Of a DNA stretch of 42,795 nt, positions 3,339 to 14,525 are shown in pieces. The notes below the pieces were generated by a model. The model was not told the origin of the DNA. It made no database searches and saw only the letters and a list, made by a program, of their open reading frames with translations. Source of the stretch: Kiritimatiellia bacterium (GTDB lineage: Bacteria > Verrucomicrobiota > Kiritimatiellia > RFP12 > UBA1067); contig JAGAEL010000039.1 in assembly GCA_017613085.1 (NCBI GenBank), positions 1 through 42,795 on the forward strand, given 5' to 3'. How positions within the stretch are numbered: position 1 is the stretch's first letter; each line of letters opens with the position of its first letter. The position numbers and the translations under genes were made by a program.

Positions 3339-4049
3339 ATGCTGATCGAAGTCAAAGATTTGGTGAAGTCCTACAAGGTCGGGGATATGGAGACCCACGC
3401 CTTGGACGGGGTTTCGCTCACAATCGATTACGGCGAGTTTGTCGCGATCATGGGGGCTTCCGGGTCCGGCAAAAGCACGCTTCTGAACATCCTCGGCTGC
3501 CTCGACGTTCCCACATCCGGCTCCTACCTGCTGGACGGTGTCCAGGTGAGCGGTATGTCGCGGAGCGAACTCGCGCACATCCGGAACCGCAAGCTGGGGT
3601 TCGTATTCCAGAGCTTCAACCTCCTCGCCCGCACGAGCGCCCTCGAAAACGTCGAACTCCCGACGTTCTACTACAAGGGGTTCCCCTCCGGCGAACGTCG
3701 TGCGCGGGCGACGAAACTGCTGGAGCGCGTCGGCCTCGGTTCGCGCATCATGAACACGCCGGGACAGCTTTCCGGCGGACAGCAGCAGCGCGTCGCCATC
3801 GCCCGCGCGCTCATGTGTTCCCCCCCCGTCCTCTTCGCCGACGAACCGACGGGAAACCTCGATACGAAGTCGAGCGTCGATATCATGAAGCTCTTCACGG
3901 AGCTGAACGAGGAGGGAATCACCATCGTCATGGTGACGCATGAAAACGACATCGCCCGCTACGCCAAGCGGCAGATCGTCGTGCGCGACGGGAAGATCAT
4001 TCATGGCGCGCGGTTCGAATCGGCGGATGATCCGGAGGCGCATACCTGA
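3339..4049 (+). CDS. MacB/LolD-type ABC transporter ATP-binding protein
   Basis: A 236-residue ABC ATPase. Walker A GASGSGKS is at 39-46, the Q-loop is FVFQSFNLL, the signature LSGGQ is at 144-148, Walker B VLFADEP at 164-170, and the H-loop is VMVTHE. The length and the set of motifs are those of the stand-alone ATPase of MacAB/LolCDE-type exporters, which drive periplasmic substrate extrusion rather than import. It sits between the adaptor and the permease. The stop overlaps the permease start (TGATG, 4047-4051), which indicates translational coupling. The ATPase is intact although its permease partner is interrupted. Confidence 0.93.
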
Positions 4050-5275
4050 TGAACTTCGTCATGATTTTGAAAGTCGCCCTGCGGGCCATCTGGCGGAACA
4101 AGACGCGGTCGCTGCTGACCGCGCTGGGCATCATTGTCGGTATCGCGGCCGTGATCGCGGTCGTCGCGATCGGGCAGGGCGCCTCCACCATGATGGTCAA
4201 GCAGATCAACAGCATGGGCAACAACCTGGTGATGGTCTTCCCCGCGAGCCGCAACCAGGGCGGCGTCCGCACGGGGGCCGGCGGCGCCCAGACGTTGACG
4301 GCGGAGGACGCCGAGGCCATCAAGCGCGAGATATCGCATTACGTCAGCAGCGTCACGCCGATCGTCCGCGCAGCCGGACAGGTCATCTATCAGGAGAACA
4401 ACTGGTCCACCTCCGTGCAGGGGTGTTCCGTCGATTTCATCGATGTCCGTAACTGGCAGCTCGCGCAGGGTATCTTTTTCGACAAGTCGCAGGAACGCAT
4501 GGGCAAGCGCGTCTGTATCCTGGGGAAGACCGTGGCGGACAACCTTTTCGGCGACCAGGATCCCGTCGGCAAGAGCATCCGCATCAAGAACATGCCGTTC
4601 AAAGTCCTGGGCGTCATGGAAAAGAAGGGGAGTAACAATTTCGGGCAGGATCAGGACGACATCATCCTGACCCCCTACACGACGGTCAAGCGCGTACTCC
4701 AGAAATCCATCTTCAACAACGTCAACATGATCTTCGTCAGCCTCTACAGCCTGGACGACACCGAGGCGGCGAAATAGGGCATTGCCGCGCTCCTGCGCCA
4801 GCGGCATAGGCTGGGGCCGCGCGCGGAGGAGGACTTCAACCTCCGCGACATGGCGGAGATCTCGCAGACCATCGGTTCGGTCTCCAGCATGATGACCATC
4901 CTGTTGACGACCGTGGCGGCGATCTCGCTGCTGGTCGGCGGTATCGGCATTATGAACATCATGCTCGTTTCGGTGACGGAGCGTACGCGCGAAATCGGCC
5001 TCCGTATGGCGATCGGTGCGACCCCCGCCGACATCTTGATGCAGTTCATCGCGGAGTCGATCCTGCTTTCCACGGTCGGCGGGTTGATCGGCGTGATTTT
5101 CGGGGTTACGGGGGCGGAAATCGTCGGGAACATCCAGCACTGGCCGATCTTGATTACGACCTCTTCCATCGTGGTCTCCTTCCTGTTCAGCGCGTTGGTC
5201 GGCGTGTTCTTCGGTTTCTATCCGGCGCTCCGCGCCTCCCGCTTGAATCCGATCGACTGCCTCCGGTACGAGTAA
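4049..5275 (+). pseudogene. MacB-type ABC permease interrupted by one in-frame TAG (4775-4777)
   Basis: Read through the stop, this is a normal 408-codon MacB/FtsX-type permease. TM1 is near LLTALGIIVGIAAVIAV, followed by a periplasmic MacB_PCD domain. After the stop come GIAALLRQRHR, three further membrane segments and the FtsX hallmark TREIGLRMAIGA, ending PALRASRLNPIDCLRYE. The frame is unchanged on both sides (a codon starting at 4049, 4775 and 4850 is in the same phase), so only one codon is wrong. The stop removes TMs 2-4, so a truncated product should not work. ATG 4850 could restart a C-terminal half, but its GGAGGAGG lies about 17 nt away. Sequencing error, a recent nonsense mutation or readthrough are the options. 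Nothing else in the gene looks decayed. Confidence 0.85.
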
Positions 5276-8778: not shown

Positions 8779-8866
8779 CCCGTTTCGCCTGTTTCCCGTG
8801 GTTACGTGTTCACACGATTCGCCCGTCGGCAATCCCCAAACATTCTTATAGACCCCGCAACTTTGT

Positions 8867-8877
8867 TATAGTACACT
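8867..8877 (+). promoter_or_regulatory. possible mutS promoter -10 region
   Basis: TATAGT (8867-8872), overlapping TACACT (8872-8877), stands about 30 nt before the mutS start in an AT-rich patch. The -35 candidate TTCTTA (8843-8848, 18-nt spacer) is weak. AAAGG five nt before ATG 8906 serves as the ribosome binding site. Confidence 0.4.
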
Positions 8878-8905
8878 AAGGGGCAACCGTTTTTGAAAGG
8901 ATGTC

Positions 8906-11404
8906 ATGGCTGACGAAGAACTGACCCCGATGATGCGCCAGTACCGGCGCATCAAGCAGGAACTGCCGCCCGATGTGATTCTGATGTTCCGGCTCGGGGA
9001 TTTTTATGAGATGTTTTTTGACGACGCGGTGGTCGCGGCCCCGATTCTGGGGCTGGTCTTGACCCGGCGCCAGAACTATCCGATGTGCGGTGTGCCTTAC
9101 CACGCGATCGATTCCTACCTCGCCAAATTCATCCGTGCGGGGAAAAAGGCCGCCATCTGTGAGCAGATGGAAGATCCCTCGCTCGCGAAGGGAATCGTCC
9201 GGCGCGAAATCACCCGCGTCGTCACGCCGGGTACCGTCACCGAGGAGAACATCCTCGAGGCGACGCGCAACAATTACCTTGCCGCCGTGTACGCCGGGAA
9301 ACAGGGGATGGGGTTGGCCCTCCTGGATCTCTCGACGGGTACGTTCACCACCGAGGAGACGGAGGATGCCCGTCAACTTGTCGAACTTCTCCGCCAGTAC
9401 GCGCCGAGCGAGTGCCTGACCGGAAAGGAGTCTGCGCAGGATCCGCGTATCTGCGACGTCATTGCCTCCGGTGCGGCAGGGACGATCACGAACATCGAGG
9501 ACTGGATGTTCGGCTACGACTGTGCGCGCGACACGTTGCTTCGCCACTTCCAAGTCCACTCGCTCGAAGGGTACGGATGCGAGGGCAACGCGCTGCTGGT
9601 CTGCCCCGCTGGCGCGCTGCTGCAGCACGTGCATGACGCGCTCCGCCATGCTGTCGACCACGTCAGGAGCTTGAAGGTCGGGCGAGGGGACGACCGCCTG
9701 GTGTTGGATGAGACGACCTGTTCGCATTTGGAGCTCTTGCCCAAGCGGGGCGGCGACGTTTCCCATTCCCTGTTCGGTGTGCTGGATAACACACAGACCC
9801 CAATGGGGGCAAGGCTTCTGCGGCAATGGCTCGTACGTCCACCCCGTCGGCGCGACGAGATCTGCGCCCGCCACGATGCCGTCGCGTTTTTTGTGAAGGA
9901 ACGCCTGACGCTCTCTTCGCTGCGCGACAAGCTCGGTGCCGTCCGCGACCTTGAACGGTTGATTGCCCGGCTCGGAACCGACCGCGGGAACGCCCGCGAG
10001 GCGCGCGCGCTTGCCGCCTCGCTTCTCCCCGTCCCGTTTCTGCGCGACGAACTCGCCGCCGCAGCAGGGGTGTCGGTTCTTGCCGAAATCGTGGGCGGGC
10101 TCCGTGCACTCCCGGAACTCGTCCGCCTTATCCAGACGGCGATCGACGACGAGCCCGCGACGGGGTTGAAGGAGGGAGGCATTATCCGGCCCGGATACAA
10201 CGCGGAGCTGGACGAATTGCGCGCGCTTGCCACGCAGGGGCACGAATGGCTCGCGCAGTATCAGGCGAAAGAACAGGAGCGTACCGGCATCAAGAACCTC
10301 AAAGTCCGCCACAACAAGGTATTCGGGTTCTACATCGAGATTTCCAAGGGGCAGGTCCCGCTCGTCCCGCCTGAATACGAACGCCGTCAGACGCTCGTCA
10401 ACGCCGAACGGTTCGTCACGCCGGAACTGAAGGAGTACGAGCAGAAGATTTTCGGCGCACAGGAAAAGTCGATGGCGATGGAGTATGAGCTTTTCTGCGC
10501 CGTCCGCCGCGAGATCGCCGCCCGCACCGCCGAGATTCAGGAAACGGCGGATGCCGTCGCCCGGTTGGACATCCTGCTTTCCTTCGCGGACCGCGCGCTC
10601 GCCCTCGGTTACGCTCGCCCTGTGATGACGGAGGGCGACACGCTGCGGATTGTCGACGGACGCCATCCGGTGATCGAACAGCTGCCGGATGCCGAGCCGT
10701 TCGTGCCGAACGACACGCTTCTCGATTGCGGCTTGAACCAGATCGCCCTGATTACCGGGCCGAATATGGCGGGGAAGTCCACCTACATCCGGCAGGTCGC
10801 GCTGATCGCGATTATGGCGCACGTGGGATCGTTCGTTCCCGCAAAGGAGGCGGAAGTCCCGTTGCTCGACCGCGTCTTCACCCGCGTCGGGGCAGGGGAC
10901 GACCTCGCCAAGGGACGCAGCACGTTCATGGTCGAAATGCAGGAGACGGCGAATATCCTCAACAACGCCACGGAGAGGAGCCTTATCGTCTTGGACGAGA
11001 TCGGTCGCGGCACCAGCACGTTCGACGGTATCAGCATCGCGTGGGCGGTCGCCGAGTATCTGCACAACACCGCCCGCGTCAAGGCGAAGACGCTCTTCGC
11101 GACGCACTATCACGAACTGACCGATCTTTCGCTCACCCTCGGCGGGGTGAAGAACTACACCGTGCAGGTGCGCGAGCGCGGGGACACCGTGGTTTTTCTC
11201 CGCCGGATCGCGCCGGGGTGCGCCGACAAGAGTTACGGCATCCAGGTGGCGCGGCTCGCCGGAATGCCGGCGGAGGTGATCGCGCGGTCGAAGGAGATCC
11301 TGCACAACCTGGAGGAGGGGGAGGTCGAAGGCGGCCTTCCCAAACTCGCCCGGACGGCCCGCCGCAAACAGGTGGACGCGCCGGGGCAGATGACGTTATT
11401 CTAA
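8906..11404 (+). CDS. mutS: DNA mismatch repair protein MutS
   Basis: An 832-residue MutS1-type protein that binds mismatches and small loops in DNA and recruits MutL. The mismatch-binding domain has the wedge motif GDFYEMF, with Phe33 and Glu35. The middle has connector, lever and clamp domains (RSLKVGRGDDRLVLDETT; KVFGFYIEISKG). The C-terminal ATPase has Walker A GPNMAGKST at 618-626, the ST-rich loop GRSTFMVEM, Walker B LIVLDEIGRGTSTFDG and TLFATHYHEL. The helix-turn-helix dimerisation tail contains AGMPAEVIARSKEIL. The length is normal. It is the first gene of a four-gene run; the next start is 21 nt away. Confidence 0.97.
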   Translation: MADEELTPMMRQYRRIKQELPPDVILMFRLGDFYEMFFDDAVVAAPILGLVLTRRQNYPMCGVPYHAIDSYLAKFIRAGKKAAICEQMEDPSLAKGIVRREITRVVTPGTVTEENILEATRNNYLAAVYAGKQGMGLALLDLSTGTFTTEETEDARQLVELLRQYAPSECLTGKESAQDPRICDVIASGAAGTITNIEDWMFGYDCARDTLLRHFQVHSLEGYGCEGNALLVCPAGALLQHVHDALRHAVDHVRSLKVGRGDDRLVLDETTCSHLELLPKRGGDVSHSLFGVLDNTQTPMGARLLRQWLVRPPRRRDEICARHDAVAFFVKERLTLSSLRDKLGAVRDLERLIARLGTDRGNAREARALAASLLPVPFLRDELAAAAGVSVLAEIVGGLRALPELVRLIQTAIDDEPATGLKEGGIIRPGYNAELDELRALATQGHEWLAQYQAKEQERTGIKNLKVRHNKVFGFYIEISKGQVPLVPPEYERRQTLVNAERFVTPELKEYEQKIFGAQEKSMAMEYELFCAVRREIAARTAEIQETADAVARLDILLSFADRALALGYARPVMTEGDTLRIVDGRHPVIEQLPDAEPFVPNDTLLDCGLNQIALITGPNMAGKSTYIRQVALIAIMAHVGSFVPAKEAEVPLLDRVFTRVGAGDDLAKGRSTFMVEMQETANILNNATERSLIVLDEIGRGTSTFDGISIAWAVAEYLHNTARVKAKTLFATHYHELTDLSLTLGGVKNYTVQVRERGDTVVFLRRIAPGCADKSYGIQVARLAGMPAEVIARSKEILHNLEEGEVEGGLPKLARTARRKQVDAPGQMTLF

Positions 11405-11425
11405 CCGTTCGGAGAGGGCTTGCAC

Positions 11426-12652
11426 ATGGAACGACAGATTTTCCTCTACCTGCTTTGGGAGGAGGCGCGCGATCACGAAGAGGAAATCCTCGCCGACATC
11501 CGCGCGCATTTCAACGTCCTCAAGCGTTTCGAGGTGACGTGGCCGCAACGCGAATTCATCGAACATCTGGAGGCGTTCTACGGGCATACTTCCGCCATCT
11601 GGCGGGCGAAGGCGAACCGCGACGGGATGGGGAGTTTCCTGGTGATCCTGGTGGAAGACGAGCACCCGCGTTTCGAGAGGCGCAAGAGCCTTGGCGGTGT
11701 CGAGCAGGAGGTGGATGTCAACGTGTACGACGCGAAGAAGCGCTACCGTAAACTCCTTAAAAGCAAAGACCGCGTCCATTCCTCCGTCACGCTCGCCGAG
11801 ACGCGCCATAATTTCTGCCTCTTGACCGGACGGACGCTCGCCGATTGGCTGGCGGAGGAAAAAGCGGACGGTGCGCTGGTGCGGCTCGTCAGCGAACAGC
11901 CGCGTTACTGGGGGTGGAAGTCGCTGGAGCAGGTCTTCACCGTCCTCAACGAGTGCATGGACTACGTGGTGTTGCGTAATGCGGGCACGTTCGACGCGAT
12001 GGCGGCGGGCGACCATCCGGACATCGATATGCTGGTGTCGGGCGTGGACACCTTCGCGGCGATCACCGGCGCGACGCGGATGTCGCCCAAGCCCCGCCGT
12101 ACCGCGTATGCCCTGAAGGTCGGCGGGAAGGTGTTGAAGTTCGACCTCCGTGAACCCGGAGACGGCTACTACGATCCTTCTTTCGCGTCGGATATTCTCG
12201 CCCGGGCGGAGTGGATGGCGGTTGACGGATCGAAAACGAAACTCCGCGTCCCCGGCGGGGAGGACAGGCTCTATTCGCTGCTCTACCACGCGCTTTTGCA
12301 CAAGAAGGAGGTTTCGCCGGATTACGCCGCGTTTTTCGAGCGGAACGGACTTGCGCGTGAACAGTGGAAGGAGGCGCTTGCCGCATGGCTTTCGTCGAAA
12401 GGGTATGCCTACTGCCGCCCGCTCGATCCGAAGGTCGCGTTCAACGAGGCGAACCTTCTGCCGTCGCCGCCGTTGAAGAGATTGCCGCGTTCGTTCGCGC
12501 ACATCTGCTCCTTCGCGCTCTCGTTTAGCAAGTTGCGGCTCCACCTCTTCACGGGTACGGGGCTCCCGAATCTTTTCCGTCTCCAGTTACGGCTCGGCGG
12601 GCTTTTCAAGATTGACATCTGCGTCGGCCAGGTCAAGGAGATTGAGACATGA
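11426..12652 (+). CDS. nucleotidyltransferase-like protein, possibly surface polysaccharide biosynthesis
   Basis: A 408-residue protein that I cannot name with certainty. The N-terminal third begins FLYLLWEEARDHEEEILADI and includes a short conserved-looking HSSVTLAETRHNF segment. In the middle, DYVVLRNAG followed by HPDIDMLVSG resembles the strand-D-x-D-strand of nucleotidyltransferase-fold proteins in capsule and LPS loci. It is followed by a strand and a phrase like LYSLLYHALLHKKEVSPDY. No membrane segment or signal is seen, so it is probably cytoplasmic. ATG 11426 is chosen over an in-frame TTG at 11420 because GGAGAGGG lies 7 nt upstream. It overlaps the next gene by ATGA. The mutS linkage looks like shared transcription rather than a repair function. 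Confidence 0.45.
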   Translation: MERQIFLYLLWEEARDHEEEILADIRAHFNVLKRFEVTWPQREFIEHLEAFYGHTSAIWRAKANRDGMGSFLVILVEDEHPRFERRKSLGGVEQEVDVNVYDAKKRYRKLLKSKDRVHSSVTLAETRHNFCLLTGRTLADWLAEEKADGALVRLVSEQPRYWGWKSLEQVFTVLNECMDYVVLRNAGTFDAMAAGDHPDIDMLVSGVDTFAAITGATRMSPKPRRTAYALKVGGKVLKFDLREPGDGYYDPSFASDILARAEWMAVDGSKTKLRVPGGEDRLYSLLYHALLHKKEVSPDYAAFFERNGLAREQWKEALAAWLSSKGYAYCRPLDPKVAFNEANLLPSPPLKRLPRSFAHICSFALSFSKLRLHLFTGTGLPNLFRLQLRLGGLFKIDICVGQVKEIET

Positions 12653-13530
12653 AGTTCTACGGGTTCTTCAATCCCGCCGGACGCCTCCTCCGTGTCTTGA
12701 GCGAGCGTTTCGTGAACGAGCTGCCCGATCTCGCCGCCAAGCTCTCCCCCGTGCCGTTGGCGGAACTGCCCCGCTACGAGTTCCCCTCCGGGAAACCGCT
12801 CCATGTGCAGTTCACGCGGCGGAATTTCGACGGCGAGTTCGCCTGGATGTTCTATCCCGCGAAACGCGACAACGTCCAGACCGTCTTCTCCAACGTGGAC
12901 GGTGTGTGGCGTGTGGAAAAGCGCGTGTTGCGCCGCGCCCTCCGTTCCCCGTTCTGCCCCTTCCGCCAGCTCGCGCTCCCGCCGGAACCGCTCCTCCCCG
13001 GTATCACCGCCGATGTCGCGATGGCCGCAGACGTACAGGGCGGCGCGTGGAGCGAGGCGATGGTGCGGTTGGAGTCGTTCTTCAAGTCGCTTGTCTCGCA
13101 GTACCCGCTCGACAAGAAGGGACGCCTCCCCGCCGGAATGGTCGATGCCCTTCCGCGTAACGCTGTTGCAGGGGCCGAAGGCGGGCTTCGCTTTTTCGAT
13201 CTTGAATACGCCCGGCGCGGCGGTGTGCGCCTTTCTTTTTTACTATACAGGGCCATCAAGATGGACTTGCTCTTGCATCTTCCGAAAGCGGAACGCAGTC
13301 AGATCGACTTCAGGGGCAGTTATGAAGCGCTCTGCCTTTCCTTCGGAATGAAACCGCGTTTCCGGCGCGATGCCCGTGAATCGCGTGCGTTGAAGCGTTT
13401 CACCAGCGGTTCGTTGCGTCGTACCCTTTGCCGGTTCTTCCTCCTGTTCCTCCCGAAACGCGCCCGTCCCCGCCACGAATGGTGGAGCGGCGATTACCGT
13501 CTCCTTCCCAAGAAAGCCTCTGCGACATGA
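12649..13530 (+). CDS. uncharacterised protein resembling modules of polysaccharide-modifying enzymes
   Basis: A 293-residue protein with no sure family. It opens with MKFYGFFNPAGRLLRVLSERF, has an internal beta-rich part with FDGEFAWMFYPAKRD, and ends in a very basic tail. The segment RFFDLEYARRGGVRLSFLLYRAIKMDL resembles the DxEW-type phrase found in accessory modules of O-antigen methyltransferases and glycosyltransferases; this is recall of a pattern, not a domain call. Start ATG 12649 overlaps the upstream stop (ATGA) and its stop overlaps the next start the same way (13527-13530), so the three genes are translationally coupled. It is probably the functional partner of the preceding gene. 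Confidence 0.4.
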   Translation: MKFYGFFNPAGRLLRVLSERFVNELPDLAAKLSPVPLAELPRYEFPSGKPLHVQFTRRNFDGEFAWMFYPAKRDNVQTVFSNVDGVWRVEKRVLRRALRSPFCPFRQLALPPEPLLPGITADVAMAADVQGGAWSEAMVRLESFFKSLVSQYPLDKKGRLPAGMVDALPRNAVAGAEGGLRFFDLEYARRGGVRLSFLLYRAIKMDLLLHLPKAERSQIDFRGSYEALCLSFGMKPRFRRDARESRALKRFTSGSLRRTLCRFFLLFLPKRARPRHEWWSGDYRLLPKKASAT

Positions 13531-14525
13531 ACGCTTTTCCCCTCAGCCTTGTTCTCGCGGCCTCGCTCGTTGCGGCGGGGTGCGGAAACCGCACCCGCGC
13601 CATCGAGAAAGCGCCGGATCCCGCGCTTCCCGCCGTCACGAACTTTCCCGCCGCGAACGCTTCCAACGCGCTTGCGCGCACGGCGGATTTTATCCGTGAC
13701 TGTACCCCCCGCGATGCCGGGACGCCGGGCGCTGAAAAGGCTGCTCGTTGACTCGCCGCCTCCCTCGCGGCGGGAGGGTTCGAGGGAACGAACGTGCTGT
13801 CCTGTTTCTCCCCTGAGGGTGTTTCCGTCTGCGCCGTCGATACGTTCACGAACGCCACGCCGCACGGTTCTTGCGCGTTCCGGAACGTACTCGCCGCCGT
13901 CCCTGCCCGTGAACCTTCGGACAAATGGATTGTCCTGCTTTCGCACTTTGATACGAAATCCGGCATCGGTCCGCGTTTCGAGGGCGCGAACGACGGCGCG
14001 TCTTCCACCGGGCTTCTTCTGGAACTCGCCTCCTGGTTCCGCCGTCGCCCCCTGCGCGACGTGAACCTGTTCTTCGGATTCATGGACGGGGAGGAGTGTA
14101 TGTCCTTCTACGGCCCTTCCGACGGATTCCACGGCAGCAGGCGGCTTGCCAAACAACTGGAAGGTAAAAAGAAAAAGGTACGCGCCGTCATTCTGATGGA
14201 TATGGTGGGCGATGCCGATTTGCGCCTCACGATTCCCCGGAACTGCACGGGCGCGTTGCGTCTTCTTTCGCTTGAAGCGGCGGAGACGGTCGGTGTCCGC
14301 GACCGGATCGGGTTGTTCGACGGCTACGTCTACGATGACCACCACGCCTTTTTTGAGGCGGGCTTCCCGGCGGTGGATTTGATTGATTTTGAATACGGCA
14401 GTGCGCCGGGAGAGAACGACTACTGGCATACCGAGGCGGACACGTTCGACAAACTTTCCTCCGAAAGCCTGTATACGACCGCGAAAATCGTTCTTGAAAT
14501 GATCCGGCGCCTGGTCGCCCCCTGA
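13527..14525 (+). pseudogene. M28 / glutaminyl-peptide cyclotransferase-like lipoprotein interrupted by one in-frame TGA (13749-13751)
   Basis: Reading through the stop gives a complete 332-residue product. It starts with a lipoprotein signal (LVLAASLVAAGC). The catalytic domain has the zinc-ligand series of M28/QC enzymes: SHFDTK, NDGASS, FMDGEE, DMVGD and YWHTEADT. The QC-type YGPSDGFHGSRRLA lies between them. QC enzymes form N-terminal pyroglutamate; M28 relatives are aminopeptidases. The stop lies between KAAR and LAASLAAGGFE, in a helix where homologues often have Trp, and the phase is identical on both sides. Restart at GTG 13794 would lose the signal peptide and part of the N-terminal domain but keep all visible metal ligands. 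Start overlaps the upstream gene (ATGA). Stop codons elsewhere show that TGA is a true stop here. Confidence 0.8.

Follow-up and report, generated by a model that had tools for sequence, protein, structure and literature searches.

An in-frame TGA interrupts an otherwise open gene for an M28 metallopeptidase, and the locus raises the question of whether this codon is read by the ribosome, ends a newly broken gene, or is an error in the assembled sequence. The window, a stretch of 42,795 nucleotides, is the whole of contig C18 in a draft assembly of 2.43 Mb (206 contigs, 66.9% complete; genome G000), and we compared it with related genomes including three of the same genus (G001, G002, and G003), with G003 as the closest relative compared. 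The interrupted gene (13527..14525, + strand) spans 333 codons and encodes a glutaminyl-cyclase-like M28 metallopeptidase with a lipoprotein-like N-terminus. The TGA (13749..13751, + strand) is codon 75, is in phase with both the ATG at 13527 and the terminal stop at 14523-14525, and is directly followed by C. No further in-frame stop was present in the whole 333-codon frame. The 5' part (13527..13748, + strand, 74 codons) holds a signal-like N-terminus and a lipobox-like VAAGC, followed by the stretch to the TGA, and the 3' open part (13794..14525, + strand, 243 amino acids) begins at the first start codon after the TGA, a GTG. The gene upstream (12649..13530, + strand) overlaps the start of the M28 gene (ATGA); it is also open in G003, where the gene order is the same.

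Read through the TGA, the protein matched Pfam Peptidase_M28 (PF04389) at residues 120-325 with E = 9e-30 and a score of 104.3 bits (gathering score 21.3). This match lies entirely 3' of the TGA, and the stop separates off the N-terminus and the stretch to codon 75. The best match in a search of solved structures was 7d18 ('Peptidase M28', 6.5e-38), and many of the 48 matches were glutaminyl-peptide cyclotransferases, with chains named glutaminyl-peptide cyclotransferase(-like) matching from 1.9e-14. The motifs GAND, DGEE, DM.GD, DDH..F, and WHT..D, which we take to serve zinc binding as in glutaminyl cyclases, were retained in the window's gene and were invariant or nearly so across 30 aligned sequences. 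The window's gene has the lipobox-like stretch near its N-terminus, as do 22 of the 29 aligned relatives, so that the first-pass annotation's label of M28 lipoprotein is a fair one. The peptidase is probably exported. The domain match and the motifs are common to the window's gene and the glutaminyl-peptide cyclotransferase-like M28 metallopeptidases (PF04389; solved structures 7d18, 2afm, and relatives). Unlike those, however, the window's gene is broken by the TGA at codon 75, and its cyclase or aminopeptidase activity is putative. The sole match in G000 to the 243-residue 3' part was the window's own copy.

A match to the M28 protein was present in 51 of 59 related genomes, and we compared the stop site in the 29 relatives whose M28 loci were aligned. 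The codon aligned with the TGA was TGG (Trp) in 25 of these, TAT (Tyr) in three, and GGG (Gly) in one, and none of the 29 had a stop there. The TGA, one base away from the usual TGG, is peculiar to G000 among the aligned relatives, and the gene is intact and open across the site in all three same-genus genomes. The prevalence of TGG at this codon among the relatives shows a true same-phase interruption and not a gene boundary. The first-pass annotation had described a single same-phase TGA in an otherwise intact gene, probably in place of a Trp codon, and the Pfam match, the open remainder, and the codons of the relatives bear out both statements; it had also held that many further lesions in orthologues would speak against its reading, and those of G001, G002, and G003 are intact. 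In one relative (G015:C60:14645-15336) the M28 match came as two overlapping pieces, perhaps reflecting a frameshift in G015.

We read the TGA as an ordinary, recent single-nonsense allele (an incipient pseudogene) of this strain, and put the probability of this at about 60%. A single base difference would have changed the Trp codon usual in relatives to TGA in the gene for a probably exported M28/glutaminyl-cyclase-like peptidase, RF2 would terminate there and leave a 74-residue N-terminal piece, and the peptidase would be lost or nearly lost. The TGG of most relatives and the open same-genus genes support this, as do the presence of both release factors, the common use of TGA as a terminator, and a search that found no suppressor anticodon (see below). 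We infer from the assembled contig that the TGA base is real in cells and that translation terminates at it. Against the nonsense allele, the base is known from that contig alone, absences from a genome 66.9% complete are not final, and there was no sign of relaxed selection on the gene, as would also be expected of an artefact or of readthrough. Recent decay is the likeliest part of what the first-pass annotation proposed. The stop is most likely an ordinary recent nonsense mutation or a sequence error and not a new reading of the code, and the case illustrates how a lone in-frame stop in a draft genome can mimic recoding; the two are told apart by the codons of orthologues, the usage of terminators, the release factors, and the anatomy of the tRNAs.

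Selection on the gene was measured against G003, which has 88% DNA identity to the window over a 5.7 kb stretch (8838-14525) holding mutS, two more genes, and the M28 gene. The dN/dS of the M28 gene was 0.106 overall, 0.160 on the 5' side of the stop, and 0.091 on the 3' side, the whole-gene value being slightly higher than in the three preceding genes (0.049 to 0.082). When changes were polarised with G001 and G002 (80 differences unresolved), the G000 branch showed 13 nonsynonymous and 27 synonymous changes and the G003 branch 11 and 21 (Fisher P = 1.0), and neither relaxed selection nor an excess of amino-acid change was detected on the stop-bearing branch relative to that of G003. At the neutral site ratio these counts allow a loss of M28 function for at most about one tenth of the branch since the G003 split (5% one-sided bound). 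Unrelaxed selection implies that the stop is very young, an artefact, or read, and with no relaxed selection and no further lesions only a very young pseudogene is possible. The nonsense change would accordingly fall within that last tenth of the branch and be recent, because nothing else in the gene has decayed. Single-nonsense bacterial pseudogenes share with the M28 gene one same-phase stop, an otherwise open frame, and intact orthologues in species of the same genus. The window's gene differs from established cases in that its stop is known here from one assembled contig alone, and it showed neither the relaxed selection nor the further lesions by which nonsense pseudogenes are recognised.

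The main rival of the nonsense allele is an error of the consensus, or a base carried by a minority strain, at the TGA: the contig is a draft and was probably assembled from a metagenome, and most cells would have the gene intact. We hold this to be unlikely, though a serious possibility. The fragmented and incomplete state of the assembly favours it, and a survey of the genome bears on it from both sides. An iterated codon model was applied to 39 stretches of G000 (510,536 bases), requiring 40 or more open codons and a codon-usage margin above zero on each side of a stop, limits at which small or frame-shifting lesions are missed. The survey returned 65 stop codons flanked on each side by coding-like sequence in one and the same frame. 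Of these, 20 were followed up by a Pfam search of the read-through frame and the other 45 were judged gene borders by eye. One candidate (L046:3011), a TAG ahead of a BspA-repeat stretch, is a borderline case, its Pfam match beginning at about the stop. Three candidates were splits within genes: the M28 TGA and two TAG codons. A survey for same-phase TAG or TGA interruptions, which the first-pass annotation had suggested, thus added a third split gene, but within the 511 kb sample gave no sign of a common reassignment.

The second split is in a gene for a MacB/FtsX-type permease (4049..5275, + strand), where TAG is codon 243 (4775..4777, + strand). Its MacB_PCD match (residues 21-247) spans this codon, and the split is therefore real, as the first-pass annotation had stated. 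The annotation's suggestion that this TAG arose from CAG did not hold, for all three genomes of the same genus encode Lys at this position (AAG in G001 and G002, AAA in G003), and five other orthologues have GAA, GAG, or GCG. The permease orthologue of another draft genome, from another genus of the family (L097, G011:C310), also contains an internal TAG; it falls 17 codons ahead of the window's, at a position that is Asn in the window. The third split is a TAG in a gene for a transporter of the bile-acid:sodium-symporter family (SBF; L045:1660-1662, G000:C14, - strand), which is TAT (Tyr) in G003. This site is variable among nine loci (Tyr in three, Leu in two, Arg in two, Phe in one, and Val in one). 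A frameshift suspected in the SBF gene of G003, from a match in two pieces, was dropped when the first piece turned out to precede the probable start.

Three isolated nonsense differences in 511 kb, with no excess of nonsynonymous change in the three split genes (Fisher P = 1.0, 0.39, and 0.82) and no common mutational pattern, are consistent with sequence error, as is the internal TAG at another site in the G011 permease. On the other side, the M28 difference is a plain G-to-A transition, and no splits were recognised in a G003 sample of 348,859 bases (45 candidates, 10 of them checked with Pfam), although the chance of all three falling in the G000 sample rather than that of G003 is 0.21. 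The first-pass annotation had considered two splits within 9 kb to be more than chance would give, but random placement of three lesions in the 511 kb sample brings two of them within 9 kb of each other about 7% of the time. Extrapolated from the sample, the whole assembly would carry about 14 lesions of this kind (95% interval about 3 to 42), which is not unusual for a bacterial draft genome.

The annotation had further proposed that, if the permease TAG came from CAG, the M28 and permease stops would both be C:G to T:A changes typical of cytosine deamination. The M28 stop is such a transition (TGG to TGA), but the simplest change for the permease stop is AAG to TAG and for the SBF stop TAT or TAC to TAG, and these are transversions. 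Splits at Trp, Lys, and Tyr codons therefore share neither a deamination change nor a common reassignment. GC-to-AT changes pooled over the three genes made up 65 of 103 on the G000 branch and 49 of 105 on the G003 branch (P = 0.019). The M28 gene showed this singly (27 of 40 against 12 of 32, P = 0.017), and the difference was not significant for the permease (16 of 26 against 14 of 28) or the SBF gene (22 of 37 against 23 of 45). The pooled excess lay in GC-to-AT transversions (19 of 103 in G000, 7 of 105 in G003, P = 0.012) and not in transitions (46 against 42, P = 0.57). We rejected a deamination signature for the three splits on these grounds and on the codons of the relatives; the counts speak for a mild AT-ward shift on the G000 branch, to which sequence errors could add. 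Between the two interrupted genes of the window, mutS (8906-11404) is open, encodes 832 amino acids with all five MutS domains, and has a dN/dS of 0.049 against G003; a lesion in this mismatch repair gene is thus not the cause.

Much less probable, in our judgement, is leaky reading, by which tRNA-Trp(CCA) would misread TGA-C, yield some full-length M28 protein with the usual residue restored, and so keep the gene under selection. Near-cognate misreading of UGA inserts Trp, and the lost residue is Trp, C stands directly 3' of the TGA, and selection on the gene looks unrelaxed. If shown, such reading would mean that a bacterial gene can tolerate an internal stop with no special tRNA, a finding of some value. 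The translation apparatus of G000 argues against it. Among the terminators of 290 model ORFs in the G000 sample, TGA was the commonest (122, with 100 TAA and 68 TAG), and RF1 and RF2 were both present as open frames, with the PVT and SPF motifs that we take as their respective marks. The RF2 gene (L082, G000:C192) is apparently one open frame through the MRGYLD region, and the in-frame TGA frameshift site presumably usual there is apparently absent from G000. Suppressor tRNAs, proposed by the first-pass annotation as worth a search, did not emerge: ARAGORN called 29 of 30 tRNA matches in this 66.9% complete genome, and none of the 29 had the anticodon UCA, CUA, or UUA. The tRNA-Trp is canonical, with anticodon CCA, five paired positions in the anticodon stem (27-31/39-43), G24, and A9. 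It has none of the changes that enable tRNA-Trp(CCA) to read UGA according to PMC13092985, namely a 4-bp anticodon stem, G24A, and A9C.

Known UGA-to-Trp reassignment or suppression (tRNA-Trp with anticodon UCA; tRNA-Trp(CCA) with a 4-bp anticodon stem; the Hirsh G24A change) resembles the M28 case in a TGA at a mostly-Trp codon. G000 differs from these systems in its canonical tRNA-Trp (a second tRNA could be missing from the incomplete genome), in retaining RF2, in using TGA as a frequent and not a rare terminator, and in that the other two splits recognised here are TAG codons, one where the same-genus relatives have Lys and one where G003 has Tyr. A single suppressor would not account for two different stops at Trp, Lys, and Tyr sites, and we rejected genome-wide recoding on the sample survey together with the tRNA and release-factor results. 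RNA folding around the TGA was ordinary when three stretches were compared with shuffles (z = 0.66, 1.30, and -0.68). Of the marks of a selenocysteine gene, G000 had no tRNA-Sec match over the RF01852 cut-off, and the M28 gene had no unusually stable hairpin after the UGA; the one match over the cut-off among 12 genomes, in G001, was called as tRNA-Leu. No title on recoding in the group was found in literature pairing 'Kiritimatiellae' with 'stop codon'.

We give equally little credence to a gene that is split but partly active, in which translation would restart at the GTG at 13794 and yield only the M28 domain, located in the cytoplasm. A GAGGGA lies six bases before this GTG and the 3' fragment contains the entire Pfam M28 match, but the fragment has no signal-like N-terminus, and the aligned codon is Phe in G003, so that the GTG is unconserved even there. 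Least probable of all, and very improbable, is that low-level reading of UGA by the ordinary tRNA-Trp keeps small amounts of the lipoprotein in production and the whole gene under selection, with the stop as a fixed damper of expression.

Elsewhere in the window, a translated stretch at 335-425 (CWTSVR..CRMA.VSMHKNRK) resembles one in G003 (L163, near 6564), and in both genomes it stands directly before an HMGL-like gene. In G003 it comes after a class II aminoacyl-tRNA synthetase gene (D, K and N type). The stretch may be a conserved leader or reflect a misplaced start.
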